Assembly (NCBI RefSeq): GCF_020217425.1
Contig: NZ_CP084090.1
Span: 248,001 to 312,000 of the forward strand
Reading direction: 5' to 3'
DNA from: Halomicrobium urmianum
GTDB taxonomy: Archaea; Halobacteriota; Halobacteria; Halobacteriales; Haloarculaceae
DNA: 64,000 bases
Each line of letters begins with the position of its first letter. Positions within the stretch are counted from its first letter, which is position 1. The notes under the pieces were generated by a model that ran no database searches, was not told where the DNA came from, and saw nothing but the letters and a program-made list of their open reading frames with translations. Shown piece after piece: positions 29,792-37,644 of the stretch. A program made the translations under genes and the position numbers.

Positions 29792-29885
29792 ACGCGCCCC
29801 TACGTCCGCGGACCGATTAATCCACCGTCGCTCGCCGCGCGTCGCCCGCCGTGGGTCTAAATAACACGCCTCACAGACGACAGGA

Positions 29886-29926
29886 ACCTGCCGGTGACCG
29901 GGAGTTTATTTATTCTCGCGGCAGGT
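29886..29926 (+). promoter_or_regulatory. liv operon promoter flanked by an 8-bp inverted repeat
   Basis: TTTATTTAT (29905-29913) is a good TATA box about 30 nt upstream of ATG 29941. It is bracketed by ACCTGCCG (29886-29893) and CGGCAGGT (29919-29926), a perfect inverted repeat with a 25-nt gap, suggesting an operator over the promoter. A TTATTTAG on the minus strand (29857-29864) may serve the divergent dehydrogenase. Confidence 0.6.
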
Positions 29927-29940
29927 CCCTCTCGACAAGT

Positions 29941-31071
29941 ATGGGCATCACGGAGACGGTTCACGACGGGCGCGGCGCCGTCGCCGAGCGACCCGCCGCG
30001 GCGCTCGTCGGCGTGGTCGCCGGCTACCTCCTTCTGGACCTCCTCGTCAAGCTGGCGGGGACGTCCGTGTTCTTCATGGGGGTCAAGGTGATCGGCGGCG
30101 CGCTGACGATCAGTTCGCTCGCGTCGATGGCCCTCGACGGGCTGCTGGTGGGGCTGGCCGTCGGGCTGGCGGGCATCGGGCTGTCGATGACGTACAGCAT
30201 CCTCGACTTCGCCAACTTCGCGCACGGCGACACGGTCACGGCCGGGGCGTTCGTCGGCTGGGTGGCCGCCTACGTCGCCGCCGGCATCGGGACCGGCGCG
30301 TCGCTGGCCGATCTGGTGATGTTCGACACGGGGCAGCAACTGAGCGTCACGCTGACGCCGGTAGCGGTCCTGGTCGGCCTGGTCGTGGCCGCGGCCGGCA
30401 CGGTCGCCGTCGCGCTGCTGATCGACCGGCTGGCCTACCGGCCGATGCGGGACGCGGGCTCTATCTCGCTGCTGATCGCCTCCATCGGGGTCGCGCTCGC
30501 GCTGCGGTACGTCGTCGCCTTCCTCTTCGGCACGCAGTCGTCCGGGGTCGCGAGCCAGGGCTTCCGGCTGATCCTGCTGAACCCCGCGGGCCAGCAGCCG
30601 GTCGCCATCACCGACAACGAGCTCGCCCTGCTGGCGATCTCGCTGGCCCTCATGCTGGGGATTCACCTCCTGCTCCAGCGGACCAAGCTCGGCAAGGCGA
30701 TGCGGGCGATGGCCGACAACGAGGACCTCGCGCGGGTGACCGGCATCCCGACCGAGCGGGTGATCCGGCTGACCTGGATCCTCGGGGGCGCGCTGGCCGG
30801 CGTCGCCGGCTACCTGCTCGTGCTGGAGAGCGGTACCATCTCCTTCAACTTCGGCTGGATCCTCCTGCTGCTGATCTTCGCCGCGGTGATCCTAGGCGGC
30901 ATCGGCTCCATCTACGGCGCGATGGCCGGCGGCGTCGTCATCGGGCTCGTCGACAGCATGGCGCTGATCTGGCTCCCCTCCGGGCTGACCCGGGCGGCGG
31001 CCTTCCTCGCGCTGATCGTCGTCCTCCTGGTCCGTCCCGAGGGCATCTTCGGGGGGGTGACGACCGCATGA
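29941..31071 (+). CDS. livH: branched-chain amino acid type ABC transporter permease LivH
   Basis: 376 residues, about eight to ten hydrophobic helices. LivH family features: GLSMTYSILDFANFAHGDTV (about 80-99), and the EAA-like cytoplasmic loop around KAMRAMADNEDLARVTGIP. It forms the importer channel together with LivM. ATG 29941 follows the TATA at 29905. The stop overlaps livM (ATGA). In haloarchaea such systems may carry branched-chain amino acids, urea, or amides, so substrate is open. Confidence 0.93.
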   Translation: MGITETVHDGRGAVAERPAAALVGVVAGYLLLDLLVKLAGTSVFFMGVKVIGGALTISSLASMALDGLLVGLAVGLAGIGLSMTYSILDFANFAHGDTVTAGAFVGWVAAYVAAGIGTGASLADLVMFDTGQQLSVTLTPVAVLVGLVVAAAGTVAVALLIDRLAYRPMRDAGSISLLIASIGVALALRYVVAFLFGTQSSGVASQGFRLILLNPAGQQPVAITDNELALLAISLALMLGIHLLLQRTKLGKAMRAMADNEDLARVTGIPTERVIRLTWILGGALAGVAGYLLVLESGTISFNFGWILLLLIFAAVILGGIGSIYGAMAGGVVIGLVDSMALIWLPSGLTRAAAFLALIVVLLVRPEGIFGGVTTA

Positions 31072-32342
31072 GCCTCGCCTGGTCGGAGTGGACCGACGAT
31101 CGCTCGGACGTCCAGCTGGTCGCCGGCTTCGTGGCGGCCATCTGGCTCGGGATGGCGCTGTTCGCCGCGCTCGTGGGCGGCCCCGACTGGCCCAACCTCG
31201 CCGCGAACTTCGTCGGGCGAGTGACCATCTTGATCGGCGCGTACGCGCTGCTCACGCTGGCGCTGAACATCCAGTGGGGCTACACGGGGCTGTTCAACAT
31301 CGGCGTCGCCGGGTTCATGGCCGTCGGCGCGTACACGACGGCCATCATGACGGCGCCGGTCGACCCCGGGACCGGCGGCGTCCCGGGCTTCGGCCTCCCG
31401 CTGTGGCTCGGCCTGATCGGCGGCATGGTCGCCGCCGCGCTCGTCGGCGCGCTCGCCGCGCTGCCGGCGCTGCGACTGGAGGCGGACTACCTCGCCATCG
31501 TGACGGTCGCCCTCTCCGAGATCATCCGGCTGTTCGTCAACTGGCAGGGCGTCCAGCACGTCTCGGTGGCCGGCGTCGAGTTCGGCACCGGCGGCGGGAC
31601 CGGCATCCGATTCGCCGCACCCAACGACGTCGTCCGCGGCCTCGTCCAGGGGCCGCTGGGCTTCCTCGTCGACGCGCTCGGCGCGCTCGGCGTCTCCGGC
31701 CCGAACGTCGTCAATATCGCGTACGGGCTCTCCCTGCTGGCCGTCGTAGCGGCGGTCTACTGGGTGCTCGACCGCCTCGCCTCGTCGCCGTTCGGCCGCG
31801 TCCTCAAGGCCATCCGCGAGGACGAGACGGTCACGCAGGCGCTCGGGAAGGACACCCGCCTGTTCAAGGTCAAGGCGTTCATGATCGGCTGCGCGCTGAT
31901 GGGGCTGGCGGGCGTCCTCTTCCGGGGTCAGGGCGGCTACATCGCGCCCGGACAGTTCCGGCCGATCATCACCTTCTACGTGTTCGCCGCGCTGATCATC
32001 GGCGGCTCCGGTTCGAACACGGGGAGCATCCTCGGGGCCGCGACGTTCACCGCCGTCCTCTTCTACTTCCCCGCACGCCTCGGCGAGAACCTCCCGTACG
32101 CCGGCCGGGGCGCGCCGGGGAACGTCGTCGACGCCCTGGGGCCGCTGTCCGCGCTGGATCCCGGGCCGCTGGTGGCTTACACGCTCTCGAACGTCAGCCT
32201 GCTCCGGTTCGTCCTCATCGGCGTCGTGATCGTGTGGGTCATGCAGAACCGACCCGAGGGGCTGCTCGGCCACCGGGTCGAACCGGCCGCGAGCGTGGAC
32301 CTCGACCGCAGCGCGGTGACGGGAGGTGACGACGATGAGTGA
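31068..32342 (+). CDS. livM: branched-chain amino acid type ABC transporter permease LivM
   Basis: 424 residues with multiple hydrophobic helices. LivM features: LALNIQWGYTGLFNIGVAGF (about 63-82), the cytoplasmic loop RVLKAIREDETVTQALGKD, and the terminal segment before LLGHRVEPAA. It pairs with LivH to form the membrane channel. It overlaps livH by 4 nt and livG by 8 nt, so the four genes are translationally coupled. Confidence 0.93.
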   Translation: MSLAWSEWTDDRSDVQLVAGFVAAIWLGMALFAALVGGPDWPNLAANFVGRVTILIGAYALLTLALNIQWGYTGLFNIGVAGFMAVGAYTTAIMTAPVDPGTGGVPGFGLPLWLGLIGGMVAAALVGALAALPALRLEADYLAIVTVALSEIIRLFVNWQGVQHVSVAGVEFGTGGGTGIRFAAPNDVVRGLVQGPLGFLVDALGALGVSGPNVVNIAYGLSLLAVVAAVYWVLDRLASSPFGRVLKAIREDETVTQALGKDTRLFKVKAFMIGCALMGLAGVLFRGQGGYIAPGQFRPIITFYVFAALIIGGSGSNTGSILGAATFTAVLFYFPARLGENLPYAGRGAPGNVVDALGPLSALDPGPLVAYTLSNVSLLRFVLIGVVIVWVMQNRPEGLLGHRVEPAASVDLDRSAVTGGDDDE

Positions 32343-33204
32343 CGCCGCATCCGACGAGCGAGAGGCGGACGCGACCACTGCGGGTACCGAGAGCGTCGAA
32401 GCGGAACGCGACGCCGTCGACGCCGAGCCCGCCGGCGACGCGCTGCTGTCCGTCGAGGACCTCCGCAAGGAGTTCGGCGGCGTCACCGCCGTCGACGGGG
32501 CCACCTTCGACGTCGAGCGCGGCTCGTTGACGGGGCTGATCGGGCCCAACGGCGCCGGCAAGTCGACCACGTTCAACTGCATCACCGGCGTCCACGAGCC
32601 CACGAGCGGAACCGTCCGCTTCGCCGGCGAGGACGTGACGGGCCTGTCGCCCGACGCCGTCGCGAACCGCGGGCTCGTCCGGACGTTCCAGATCGCCCGC
32701 GAGCTCTCGGAGATGACCGTCCTCGAGAACGTCATGCTCGCCCCGCCGGATCAGGTCGGCGAGTCGGCGACGCGGGCGGTCCTGCCGGGCCTGCGCGACG
32801 AGGTCGAGCGCACCGAGGCCGAGGTCCGCGACCGGGCCTGGGAGACCCTGGATTTCTTCGAGATCGATCACCTGGCCCACGAGTACGCCGGCACCCTCTC
32901 CGGCGGCCAGCGGAAGCTGCTGGAGATGGCCCGCGTGCTGATGACCGATCCCGACATGGTGCTGCTGGACGAACCGCTGGCCGGCGTCAATCCGACGCTG
33001 GAGGAGAAGCTGCTGGAGCGGATCCACGAACTGCGCGAGGACGGGCTGACGTTCCTGCTCGTCGAGCACGACATGGACGTGATCATGAACAACTGCGAGC
33101 ACATCGTCGTGATGCACCAGGGCGAGGTCCTGGCGGAGGGCGACGCCGAGGCGATCAGGTCGAACGAGCGCGTCCTCGAGGCCTACCTGGGAGGTGACGT
33201 ATGA
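32335..33204 (+). CDS. livG: ABC transporter ATP-binding protein LivG
   Basis: 289 residues from ATG 32335. An acidic N-terminal extension of about 35 residues precedes the ABC ATPase: Walker A GPNGAGKST, Q-loop FQIAREL, signature LSGGQRKLLEMARVL, Walker B MVLLDEPLAGV and H-switch VEHDMDVI. The ILE-type spacing and GVNPTLEEKLLERI fit LivG. It powers the importer as a heterodimer with LivF. The start overlaps livM and the stop overlaps livF (ATGA). Confidence 0.94.
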   Translation: MSDAASDEREADATTAGTESVEAERDAVDAEPAGDALLSVEDLRKEFGGVTAVDGATFDVERGSLTGLIGPNGAGKSTTFNCITGVHEPTSGTVRFAGEDVTGLSPDAVANRGLVRTFQIARELSEMTVLENVMLAPPDQVGESATRAVLPGLRDEVERTEAEVRDRAWETLDFFEIDHLAHEYAGTLSGGQRKLLEMARVLMTDPDMVLLDEPLAGVNPTLEEKLLERIHELREDGLTFLLVEHDMDVIMNNCEHIVVMHQGEVLAEGDAEAIRSNERVLEAYLGGDV

Positions 33205-34016
33205 GCGAGCGCGCCGACGCCGACGAGCGCGGCGCGGACGACGCGGCCGCCGCAGAGTCCACCGACGTGCGGGCGACCCTGTCGGAGAACGTCGACCTGC
33301 CGGACCCCGCCGAGAGCCTGCTTTCGGTCCGGGACCTCGACGCCGGCTACGGCGACCTTCAGGTGCTGGACGGCGTCGACCTTGACGTCGCCGACGGCGA
33401 GTACGTCACCGTCGTCGGCCCCAACGGCGCCGGCAAGTCGACCGTGATGAAGTCCGTCTTCGGCCTCACGGCCCACATGGGCGGCTCGATCGTCTTCGAC
33501 GGCGAGGACATCGGTGGACGCCGACCCGACGAGATCATCCACCAGGGCGTCGGCTACGTGCCCCAGACGGACAACGTGTTCTCGTCGCTGTCCGTCCGGG
33601 AGAACCTGGAGATGGGGGCCTACATCCTCGACGAGATGCCGGAGGACCGGATCTGGGAGGTGTACGACCGGTTCCCCATCCTCGAGGAGCGGTCCGAGCA
33701 GAAGGCCGGGACGCTCTCGGGCGGGCAACAGCAGATGCTCGCCATGGGCCACGCGCTGATGCTCGACCCCGACCTCCTCCTGCTGGACGAGCCCTCCGCC
33801 GGGCTGGCGCCGGACCTCGTCGACGAGATGTTCGACCGCATCGACGCCATCAACGACGCCGGCACGGCCGTTCTGATGGTCGAGCAGAACGCGAAGGAGG
33901 CGCTGCGCCGCTGCGACCGCGGGTACGTCCTCGTCCAGGGACAGAACCGCTACCAGGACGAGGGATCGACGCTCCTGGGCGACGAGGAGGTCAGGCAGGA
34001 GTTCCTCGGCGGCTGA
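33201..34016 (+). CDS. livF: ABC transporter ATP-binding protein LivF
   Basis: 271 residues. An acidic extension of about 35 residues, then Walker A GPNGAGKST, the LivF-type Q-loop stretch GVGYVPQTDNVFSSLSV, signature TLSGGQQQMLAMGHALM, Walker B LLLLDEPSAGLAP and H-like VEQNAKEAL (Gln replacing the switch His position, as is usual in LivF). Last gene of the operon; tail-to-tail with the permuted solute-binding protein, 82 nt apart. Confidence 0.94.
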   Translation: MSERADADERGADDAAAAESTDVRATLSENVDLPDPAESLLSVRDLDAGYGDLQVLDGVDLDVADGEYVTVVGPNGAGKSTVMKSVFGLTAHMGGSIVFDGEDIGGRRPDEIIHQGVGYVPQTDNVFSSLSVRENLEMGAYILDEMPEDRIWEVYDRFPILEERSEQKAGTLSGGQQQMLAMGHALMLDPDLLLLDEPSAGLAPDLVDEMFDRIDAINDAGTAVLMVEQNAKEALRRCDRGYVLVQGQNRYQDEGSTLLGDEEVRQEFLGG

Positions 34017-34098: not shown

Positions 34099-35478
34099 TC
34101 ACCGGCTCATCGCCTGGTTGATCTCGGACGTGTACGAGGACTGCTGGGACTCGAAGGCGACCTGGGCGACGACCTCGCCGCCGGCCTCCTCGAAGGCGTC
34201 GACGAACGCCTGCTGGAGCGCCTGGCCGTAGCTGTTGTTGAGATACAGCGTGGAGGCCGTCGACGCGCCGATGTCCTCGTTCGCCAGCTGGGCCAGGACA
34301 CGACCCTGGAGCGCGTCGCTCGGCGGCGTCCGGAACACGTAGTCGTCGTCCTCCAGATTGGTGATGGCCGGCGACGTCGAGGCGGGCGAGACGCCGACGA
34401 CGCCGTTCGGCACGAACACGTTCTGCGCGACCTGGATGGTCGACTCCGAGGAGGCGGCGCCGGTGATCGACGGGTAGCCGTCGCTCACCAGCGAGTTGGC
34501 GGCGTCGATGGCCGGCTGGGCCTGGGACTGCGTGTCGGCCCGCTGGTAGTCGAACTCGAAGTCGACCTCGCCCTCGAGCTGGAGCGCCGGCAGGGTCGCA
34601 GCGTCGGCGATGGGCACGCCCAGGTTACCCAGGTCGCCCGATTCGGGCTGGAGGACGCCGAAGCGGATCGTCCGGCCCGACTCGCTGCCGTCGCCCTGGG
34701 GCTCTGGCTGGGGAACGTCCTCGCCGCCGCCGAAGTCGACGGTGTCGGTGGTCTCGTAGCCGTCCTCGTCGAAGCCGAACACCTCGTAGCTGACCGCGCC
34801 GATGTCGCCGTTCTCGTCGAAGACGACGTTGCTGGAGGCGCCCTGGTACTCGACGTTCTCGCCCGCCGCGGCCGCCTCGACGGCCGCCGGGAGCTCGGAG
34901 GGCCCGAACGTCTCGCCGCCCGGATTGGCGACCACTCGCATGTTGTCGCGGACGGCCTGCCCGTCGTTCTCGCCGGCCATGGCGTTGGCCAGGATCTGGA
35001 CGGCCGTCGCGTCGTAGGCCTGCGCGGTGAACACGCCCGGCTCGTCGTAGTCGAACTCGCTGGTGAACATCTCGGTGAACGCGTCGGCGCCCGGCCCCGA
35101 CGCGGACGGCGCCGTCCCGCGGACGTTCGACATGTCGTTGCCCACGTCCTGCGGGAGTTCGCCGTCCTGCAGGCCGTCGGTCACCAGGATCTCGGCGTCG
35201 TCGTCGCCGTAGTCGGAGTAGTAGTCGCTGAACAGCTGAATGCCGCTCTGCGGGTAGCCGACCACGACCATCACGTCCGGGGTCGAGCCGCCGCCGTCGG
35301 TGGCCGTCCCGGTGGTCTCGTCGTCGCCATCGGTGTCGGTGCCGTCGCCGCCGTCCCCGCCGTCGCCGGTCTGTTCGGTCGTACAACCGGCAAGGCCGGC
35401 GATGCCGGCCACACCCAGTGCCCCGCTACGCTTCAGAAACCGCCGTCGACTGTCCGTGCGCATGGCTGGTCGAGCCAT
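34099..35478 (-). CDS. livJ: liv-type solute-binding lipoprotein with permuted domain order
   Basis: 459 residues. A Tat-like signal (SRRRFLKRSGALGVAG) leads to a lipobox ending at Cys32 and a Gly/Asp/Thr linker (33-66). Residues 67-248 (PDVMVVVGYPQSGIQLF to YEVFGFDEDG) correspond to the C-terminal half of haloarchaeal LivJ proteins. A linker (249-268) follows, and residues 269-459 (TIRFGVLQPESGDLGNLGVP to SSYTSEINQAMSR) are the normal N-terminal half. In ordinary homologues the 459 end is continuous with residue 67. The permutation leaves one complete Peripla_BP_6 fold with new termini. AGGAGATT about 8 nt before ATG 35478 is a good ribosome-binding site. It would feed LivHMGF. Confidence 0.88.
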   Translation of the reverse strand: MARPAMRTDSRRRFLKRSGALGVAGIAGLAGCTTEQTGDGGDGGDGTDTDGDDETTGTATDGGGSTPDVMVVVGYPQSGIQLFSDYYSDYGDDDAEILVTDGLQDGELPQDVGNDMSNVRGTAPSASGPGADAFTEMFTSEFDYDEPGVFTAQAYDATAVQILANAMAGENDGQAVRDNMRVVANPGGETFGPSELPAAVEAAAAGENVEYQGASSNVVFDENGDIGAVSYEVFGFDEDGYETTDTVDFGGGEDVPQPEPQGDGSESGRTIRFGVLQPESGDLGNLGVPIADAATLPALQLEGEVDFEFDYQRADTQSQAQPAIDAANSLVSDGYPSITGAASSESTIQVAQNVFVPNGVVGVSPASTSPAITNLEDDDYVFRTPPSDALQGRVLAQLANEDIGASTASTLYLNNSYGQALQQAFVDAFEEAGGEVVAQVAFESQQSSYTSEINQAMSR

Positions 35479-35587: not shown

Positions 35588-36331
35588 TCACGGGGCGAGC
35601 CGGTTCTTCCGGTTCTTCATGTGCTCGTTGTAGTACTCGAAGGTGATCGGACACCACTCCTCGGCGAGGTCGAGGACCTCTTCCGTCATCTGTCGAATCT
35701 CCCACTGGCTATCCGCGGCCGCCCGCATGTCGCCGACGTGCATCAGCATCCGGGCGTTCATCGACATGACCATGTTGACCTTCGTGCCGATGGGGAGGAC
35801 GAACCGGGCGTCCTCGGGCGGCATGCCGAGGTCGAGCAGCTTCTGGTAGGACTCGACGGCGTCGGCCACCGCGTCCTGGAAGACCTCCTCGCGCTTCTCG
35901 GCGGTCTCCTCGCCGACGCGGCCGGTCTGCTGGTTGCGGCCGACCCAGTCGGGGTCCGTCGCCGAGGGCGGGGTCACGACCAGCTCGCCCTCGCGGACGT
36001 CCTCGGGGTCGACGTCATCGAAGGAGACGTAGCGCATGCTCTGGACGTCGAAGGAGACGTGCCGGTGACGGGTGATCTGGGCCATACAGGAGCGGCTGAT
36101 CCCCTTCACCGCGACGGTGGCCTGCGGGTGCTCGAAGGGGCCGAAGTGGCCGTGGTCGAGGAGGTGGCCGATGAGCGTCTCCTTCTTCTCCTCGACGTCG
36201 TCGCCCTCGATCTCGGCCATCGTCTCCGAGAAGGACTGGTCGCCGACGAACGCCTCGCTGTAGTCGTTGCGTGCGGCCGTGCAGATGACTTGCTCGGGAT
36301 CCTCGGTGGCCTCCAGCAACTGGACTTCCAT
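35588..36331 (-). CDS. thyX: flavin-dependent thymidylate synthase ThyX
   Basis: 247 residues. ThyX signature RHRHVSFDVQSMRY (about 87-100) matches RHRxxSxxxxSxRY. Other conserved parts are HGHFGPFEHPQATVAV (about 60-75) and the C-terminal NARMLMHVGDMRAAADSQWEIR. It makes dTMP from dUMP using methylene-tetrahydrofolate and FAD/NADPH. TTATTGCC about 27 nt upstream supports a leaderless ATG 36331. Confidence 0.96.
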   Translation of the reverse strand: MEVQLLEATEDPEQVICTAARNDYSEAFVGDQSFSETMAEIEGDDVEEKKETLIGHLLDHGHFGPFEHPQATVAVKGISRSCMAQITRHRHVSFDVQSMRYVSFDDVDPEDVREGELVVTPPSATDPDWVGRNQQTGRVGEETAEKREEVFQDAVADAVESYQKLLDLGMPPEDARFVLPIGTKVNMVMSMNARMLMHVGDMRAAADSQWEIRQMTEEVLDLAEEWCPITFEYYNEHMKNRKNRLAP

Positions 36332-36395
36332 ACCGGGTGCCTGATGCCGACGGCAATAACGTTTCTGCGTCGAGACGGTCGCGTCGGAGCGACTG

Positions 36396-37046
36396 TCAGA
36401 GGTCCTGCCAGTCGCTGGGTTCGGCCGACAGGCCCATGACCCGGGCCTCGCGCGCGCCCTCGTTCTCGCGGATCTCCACGAGGCCGTCGAAGGCCTGCTT
36501 GATGACCTGCAGCGTCTGGTCGTCGTGCGCGCCGGAGTCGATGGTGAACACGCCGACGTAGCCCGCCGAGTCCAGCCGCGAGGAGAGGATGTGACAGAGC
36601 TTGAAGACCGTCTTCTTGTCCGTGTAGGTCAGCATCGTCGACAGCGAGACGAGCGCCAGTCGCCCGCGGTCGCGGCCGCCCTTGTGGAGCCCCTCGAGGG
36701 CCTTGGTGATGCCGATGCCGATGCCGGTCAGGTCGCCCGGCGAGGAGACGTGGTGGACGAACGCGCCCGACTCGTCGGCGTCGACGCCGTCCCCGCGGCA
36801 GTCGACGACGCCGAGCTGGGACTCGCCCAGTTCCGGGACGTCCGTCCGGAACTCGTCGACGACGGACGCCGCCCGGTCGTTGGTCGTGACGACCACGGCC
36901 CCTTCGCCGCCCCTCGCCCCCTCCTTCAGGACGTCGAACGCGATGGCCTCCTTGCCGCTCATCGCGGGCCCCGCGATGAGCAGGCTGGTGCCGGGACGCA
37001 CGCTCTCCAGCGCGTCGAAGTCGAGTACGGTTGATAGGTCGTACAT
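36396..37046 (-). CDS. RecA/KaiC-like P-loop ATPase paired with response regulator
   Basis: 216 residues. P-loop-like GPAMSGKEAI (about 25-34) and a Walker B-like RLALVSLSTML hydrophobic strand place it in the RecA/KaiC-like family of haloarchaeal signalling ATPases. Start ATG 37046 lies 13 nt after the HalX response regulator stop (37060) on the same strand; an in-frame ATG at 37076 would overlap it. The pairing suggests the ATPase acts in the same signalling path. No kinase is adjacent. Biochemical role unknown. Confidence 0.75.
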   Translation of the reverse strand: MYDLSTVLDFDALESVRPGTSLLIAGPAMSGKEAIAFDVLKEGARGGEGAVVVTTNDRAASVVDEFRTDVPELGESQLGVVDCRGDGVDADESGAFVHHVSSPGDLTGIGIGITKALEGLHKGGRDRGRLALVSLSTMLTYTDKKTVFKLCHILSSRLDSAGYVGVFTIDSGAHDDQTLQVIKQAFDGLVEIRENEGAREARVMGLSAEPSDWQDL

Positions 37047-37059
37047 GGTCTCTGAGAGG

Positions 37060-37644
37060 TCAGTTCCCGTCTCCATTGCCCAGTCCCCGTAGCGTCGCGA
37101 TGAAGTCCTCGTCGTCCTCGATGCCACCCAGCGAGCCCGACAGCTCGTCCTTCAGTTCGCCGATCTTCCCTTTAAGAGCGTCGTATTCGTCGCTCTCGGC
37201 GAGTTCCGCGTTGCTCTTGGTCGCCTCCAGGGTCGCGCGCTTCTCGACCAGCGAGTAGTACTCCTGAAGGAGGGCGTCGTACTCGGATCGATCGAGCAGG
37301 TTCTCGACGGTGTCGTGGAGCTGCTGGCTCCGGATGGGCTTCGAGAGGTAGGCGTCGAACCCCATCTCGAGGATGTCGAAGTCCGGTTCGACCGCCGTCA
37401 CCATAGCCACCCGACACTCCAGATCCCGCTCCCGGATGCGCTCGAGGACCTCGTCCCCGGAGAGTCCGGGCATCATCCTGTCCAGGAGGACCACGTCGAC
37501 GCTCTCGTCGAGCAGTTCCAGCCCTTCGTCGCCGTCGTGCGCCATCCGGACCTCGTAGTCGTCGCGCAACCACAGCCGATACGTCTCGGCTACGTCCGGT
37601 TCGTCCTCGACGATGAGCACGACAGGTCGATCCGATTCGGACAT
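37060..37644 (-). CDS. response regulator with HalX domain
   Basis: 194 residues. A receiver domain (about 8-122) has the acidic pair EDEPD, phospho-acceptor Asp in VVLLDRMMPG (about 55), Thr in VTAVEP and Lys in LSKPIRSQQL. The C-terminal HalX domain (about 125-185) is a coiled pair, TVENLLDRSEYDALLQEYYS, with SEYDALLQEYYSLVEKRATL. There is no DNA-binding domain, so output is probably by protein contact. Its neighbour downstream is the KaiC-like ATPase. Confidence 0.92.
   Translation of the reverse strand: MSESDRPVVLIVEDEPDVAETYRLWLRDDYEVRMAHDGDEGLELLDESVDVVLLDRMMPGLSGDEVLERIRERDLECRVAMVTAVEPDFDILEMGFDAYLSKPIRSQQLHDTVENLLDRSEYDALLQEYYSLVEKRATLEATKSNAELAESDEYDALKGKIGELKDELSGSLGGIEDDEDFIATLRGLGNGDGN

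Follow-up and report, generated by a model that had tools for sequence, protein, structure and literature searches.

A naturally permuted Liv-type solute-binding lipoprotein of haloarchaea and the probable recurrence of its rearrangement at a single loop

We describe a gene of Halomicrobium urmianum encoding a Peripla_BP_6 (LivJ-like) solute-binding lipoprotein in which the two halves of the fold occur in swapped order. The gene occupies positions 34099..35478 on the minus strand of the window (the whole stretch of 64,000 nucleotides that was analysed) and encodes 459 amino acids in a frame that is open throughout. A preliminary description had given these coordinates correctly but left the strand unstated. 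Taken jointly, the evidence makes it probable that the protein is the permuted substrate-binding component of a LivHMGF importer and that rearrangement at the same loop has, most likely, been recurrent in haloarchaea.

The protein can be divided into five parts, all encoded on the minus strand. It opens with a Tat signal and lipobox (residues 1-32; 35383..35478), where TIGR01409 matches residues 10-29 and where the Tat motif RRRFLKR and the lipobox LAGC (...GLAGC), with the cysteine at residue 32, can be read directly; signal and lipobox have thus stayed at the front, as was originally suggested. The true start may be Met6. A low-complexity acidic, Gly/Asp-rich tether, also recognised by reading the sequence (residues 33-65; 35284..35382), leads from the cysteine of lipid attachment to the fold. 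This is followed by the ordinary second half, placed first (residues 66-250, starting TPDVMVVVGYP; 34729..35283), which was delimited using Pfam, the structure 3td9 and a profile of permuted relatives. A permutation linker of 18 residues (251-268; 34675..34728) then bridges the former C- and N-termini, and the ordinary first half comes last (residues 269-459, with RTIRFGVLQPESG at its start and SEINQAMSR at its end; 34102..34674).

The circular permutation proposed in the preliminary description is borne out by two alignments and by the predicted fold. PF13458 matches the protein with a score of 93.2 bits (gathering cut-off 31.7; E=3.2e-26) in two stretches: profile positions 1-188 correspond to residues 270-458, while the remainder of the profile precedes them in the chain, so that the match is not colinear. 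Sequence alignment with Thermotoga LivK (PDB 3td9) places chain residues 16-202 at residues 270-458 and chain residues 204-327 at residues 66-188. Since the Pfam and 3td9 segments both occur in reversed order, the halves of the window protein are swapped. The swapped order is also seen with a profile built from 43 permuted relatives, all of which are matched by PF13458; the pocket motifs SP.ST and DG (second half) are nearly or fully invariant in these sequences. The genome encodes three further Peripla_BP_6 proteins, all in normal order and colinear with the profile. Profile annotation covers the permuted proteins only in part, and a large permuted group has in this way been hidden.

An AlphaFold2 model of the window protein, made with the 43 permuted sequences, reached a pLDDT of 90.8 and a pTM of 0.88, compared with 93.5 and 0.90 for the normal-order homologue L098. 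Each model contains 27 helices and strands. Colinearity with the normal fold is reached only after rotation of the permuted string of elements, which is the normal string rotated by 14 with 27/27 agreement. The model is a single confident predicted fold, in line with the early view that the fold is complete, and from the pTM and the rotation of elements both halves are predicted to form one bilobed type I body. In the AlphaFold2 models the break follows 14 elements and separates a helix from a strand in the C-terminal lobe, the lobe in which it had been expected. With the order-dependent Foldseek search, the alignment to 3td9 spans 386 columns for the normal model (target TM 0.86) and only 194 for the permuted model (TM 0.44); residues 211-400 of the latter superpose on residues 4-207 of 3td9. 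No solved structure with the permuted Liv order was found among the sequence matches listed, the best match lying mostly in the first-half segment. One VIA-align match, of model m8edac812d5d4 to PDB 5er3, is unlike the other structure matches, which cover a single half: it extends over 242 residues across both halves (Z 13.5, 4.3 A, 12% identity) and is probably due to pseudo-symmetry.

The permuted order is not unique to the Halomicrobium urmianum genome. A search for homologues of the same order, called for in the preliminary description, covered a sample of 392 Halobacteriales genomes and found one-piece matches (E<=1e-80) in 159. Haloarcula homologues match in one piece over residues 7-458 with 69-75% identity, further Haloarculaceae genera also carry the gene, and full-length one-piece homologues of about 50% identity are found across the order. 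In a search of the whole phylum, those of the matches listed that lie outside Halobacteriales were broken into pieces; normal order was seen in all four outgroup loci examined. The bacterial check concerned two plasmid matches, the best covered (Tistrella and Neorhizobium), rather than a systematic survey, and neither is permuted. The permuted protein had no match at E<=1e-30 in six genomes of the same genus (G059-G064), despite the synteny of the locus with Haloarcula; this points to either loss or transfer.

Several individual cases were recorded during this survey. In one genome (G288:C2:2081090-2083861) the permuted gene appears to be split into two matches with a gap of about 1.3 kb, possibly caused by an insertion. 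Tandem pairs of permuted binding-protein genes occur in f17 genomes (L072:7850-10633, L073:7377-10165 and L095:7693-10492); the second copy carries a Tat signal, lacks a lipobox and has hardly any tether. Five genomes contain both orders: G103 (L068/L155), G275 (L078/L151), G276 (L090/L152), G279 (L153 together with permuted matches) and G353 (L089/L154). In most of these, each binding-protein gene adjoins liv genes.

The gene lies beside a set of transporter genes on the plus strand. These encode a livH-like permease (29851..31071; PF02653; start codon probably over-extended; the best named models, LivH/UrtB, below cut-off), a livM-like permease (31068..32342; PF02653; LivM model below cut-off), a livG-like ATPase (32326..33204; PF00005 and PF12399) and a livF-like ATPase (33201..34016; PF00005; LivF model below cut-off). 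About 80 bp separate the end of livF from the stop codon of the binding-protein gene, the two being convergent (tail-to-tail). This convergent arrangement is present in nearly all haloarchaeal loci examined, with the order of the binding protein permuted or normal according to lineage. A promoter and terminator scan gave no match, the models used being of bacterial style and unsuited to archaea. Beyond the binding-protein gene (35588-37644) are thyX, a DUF7504 gene and a HalX response regulator, an order repeated in several Haloarcula-group loci (L048, L049, L093 and L094). In two close relatives (L049:7392-9206 and L093:8697-10521) some 1.8 kb of extra DNA separates the stop codons of the binding-protein gene and livF.

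The history of the order was followed on a tree of 110 binding proteins (SBP), whose halves were first put into one order. The permuted proteins form five groups on this tree, with five order changes: A (32 rows, order-wide), B (Haloarcula and the window protein), C (G039/G044), D (G048) and E (sister of the normal-order protein L114). A tree of LivHMGF, in which the order of the binding protein leaves no trace, requires six changes and again groups E with L114. Across the two trees the permuted genes thus fall into four to six groups. The permuted genes are clustered on the trees, yet five to six order changes are needed.

In AU tests, which were made after the tree had been seen, with groups named post hoc and mostly with quick searches under LG+G4 rather than a mixture model, a single permuted clade was rejected by the re-ordered SBP data (p=0.003; 0.018 without long rows; 0.008 in a 74-row set) and by LivHMGF (p=0.0005). 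LivHMGF also rejects A+E, A+B, A+B+C+D and B+E. The N-half alone rejects the single clade (p=0.034) as well as A+E and B+E (p<0.001); the C-half alone rejects none of the three (p=0.28, 0.25 and 0.34, respectively). The re-ordered protein rejects both A+E and B+E but does not reject A+B+C+D together (p=0.18), so that only E is robustly separate there; it is also the only group whose separation is confident in both data sets. Between group D and normal-order L130 the identity after re-ordering reaches 72%, and therefore at least this order change is not among the oldest. On the combined tree tests (SBP, halves and LivHMGF), at least two order changes are well supported and four to six are favoured. 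We give an even chance to the stronger statement that one orthologous binding-protein locus was permuted at the identical loop at least four times independently in haloarchaea.

An ancient, single permutation in the ancestor of the haloarchaea, with several later reversions or replacements by normal-order genes, would account for what the groups have in common. All permuted genes share the same breakpoint loop (...SSYTSxIxxAL, then PDxLxVIGYP...), their internal linkers measure 16-22 residues in every group (exactly 18 in B, C and D), as expected from one origin, some linkers of different groups contain an xPGxxxR-like motif, and the C-half does not reject one clade. This history must nevertheless be paid for with one gain and nine losses, compared with five gains on the SBP tree or five to six on both trees, and the maximum-likelihood loss rate in a free two-state model is 0. 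In addition, the outgroups have the normal order and each reversion would have to recreate the exact old termini. We consider a single ancient event unlikely.

Alternatively, one permutation may have been spread by gene transfer, with the halves later converted by normal-order paralogues in the same cell. The genomes holding both orders (G275, G276, G279, G353 and G103) would provide the opportunity, and the trees of the N-half and C-half are unequally decisive. Against this, careful trees of the halves put D nearest L100/L130 and E close to L114 or to normal-order relatives of L114 (for the C-half, E with L114 at 96/86 and D with normal-order L100/L130 at 96/90), and LivHMGF, which are separate genes, likewise pair E with L114. 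Such transfer and conversion seem to us distinctly improbable.

Recurrent permutation thus remains our preferred reading. At loci of this type, and starting from an ancestor of normal order, the rearrangement would most likely have happened at one loop on more than one occasion. In each case the old termini would have been joined by a linker, of 18 residues in the window protein, and new termini opened in the helix-to-strand loop of the C-terminal lobe. The most likely origin is an in-frame tandem duplication that later lost its first N-half, located behind the signal, and its last C-half, in which case the pre-domain segment of the second copy would have become the linker. The normal-order proteins L138 and L139 (G181 and G169) carry a pre-domain xPGSEAGR (xPGSxxGR) before the first strand that resembles the linkers of permuted groups C and D. 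This fits a linker derived from the pre-domain segment, and the segment is possibly an ancestral linker or the trace of a reversion. Duplication intermediates (N-C-N or C-N-C) and half-gene remnants were sought beside the genes and none was found, the only related cases being the tandem permuted pairs of some f17 genomes.

The Tat/lipobox anchor has been kept at the front of the chain, so that the tether now joins the other lobe. This relocation may bring some benefit. A difference in tether length as the reason for permutation was considered and rejected: lengths are similar, with overlapping medians (18.5-37 in permuted groups and 33 in normal proteins).

The protein probably serves, anchored in the membrane, to bind the substrate for a LivHMGF ABC importer of the branched-chain-amino-acid type (HAAT). 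The ligand would most likely be an amino acid or a comparable small solute, bound by the usual closure of two lobes and passed to LivH/LivM. The NCBIfam Liv models are matched only below cut-off and therefore do not fix the substrate. The protein might instead be a sensor or another receptor outside transport. As the gene is convergent with livHMGF, it is not on the livHMGF transcript, which could be taken in favour of a sensor. On the other hand, the binding-protein gene adjoins livHMGF in nearly all loci, whichever the order, and the groups of binding proteins largely track those of LivHMGF on the trees, which makes a sensor very unlikely. That the swapped order is an artefact of assembly or annotation, a reservation attached to the preliminary description, has practically no probability left, since the frame is open throughout and the same order recurs across numerous independently assembled genomes. 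One of these, the complete genome NZ_CP119794.1, holds a permuted one-piece homologue, and local assembly error is excluded.

Natural circular permutations are usually compared between distant proteins and regarded as single ancient events. Here, permuted and ordinary versions, up to 72% identical, adjoin the same transporter in related genomes, and therefore the causes and costs of permutation, the anchoring lobe and the duplication route become directly testable. If at least four permutations did occur at one loop, this would imply either selection (for example, for attachment of the lipid anchor to the opposite lobe) or a mutational route with a strong bias, and repeated permutation would supply natural before/after pairs of one protein. 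Natural permuted Liv scaffolds are also possible starting points for biosensor design.

The protein can be compared with three known types. Like the LivJ/LivK-type HAAT proteins (3td9, 1usg and 4gnr; PF13458), it has both homologous halves, the pocket motifs and an adjacent livHMGF; unlike them, it has swapped halves, a new linker and an anchor on the other lobe. The normal-order haloarchaeal homologues (L098, L100, L114 and L130) are Tat-lipoproteins of up to 72% identity after re-ordering whose gene neighbourhood matches in most cases (not seen around L130), but they have the ordinary order and no internal linker. In full-text searches of papers open without subscription, we found no report of a permuted Liv-type or Peripla_BP_6 binding protein. 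The preliminary description had made the same point for Peripla_BP_6 lipoproteins, and it stands for that family; a permuted solute-binding lipoprotein of another family had, however, already been described. This closest precedent is TpMglB-2 (Tp0684) of Treponema pallidum, a natural permuted MglB-type binding lipoprotein for which Type Ic / Cluster Bc was proposed (PMC4990184). It is a glucose-binding relative of MglB with a bilobed fold in which ligand-induced closure was shown, and its authors propose anchoring as a possible reason for the permutation (PMC4990184). Both are anchored, permuted type I lipoproteins with the two termini in one lobe and an extra linker between the old ends, the fold being a predicted one in our case. 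They differ in that the break of TpMglB-2 is in the N lobe (the first three strands moved to the end) and that of the window protein in the C lobe (14 elements moved), and in that TpMglB-2 is bacterial and MglB-type whereas the window protein is archaeal, PF13458/LivJ-type and apparently recurrent at one site. Because break site and sequence type differ, the window protein is an analogue of Type Ic / Cluster Bc and not a member.
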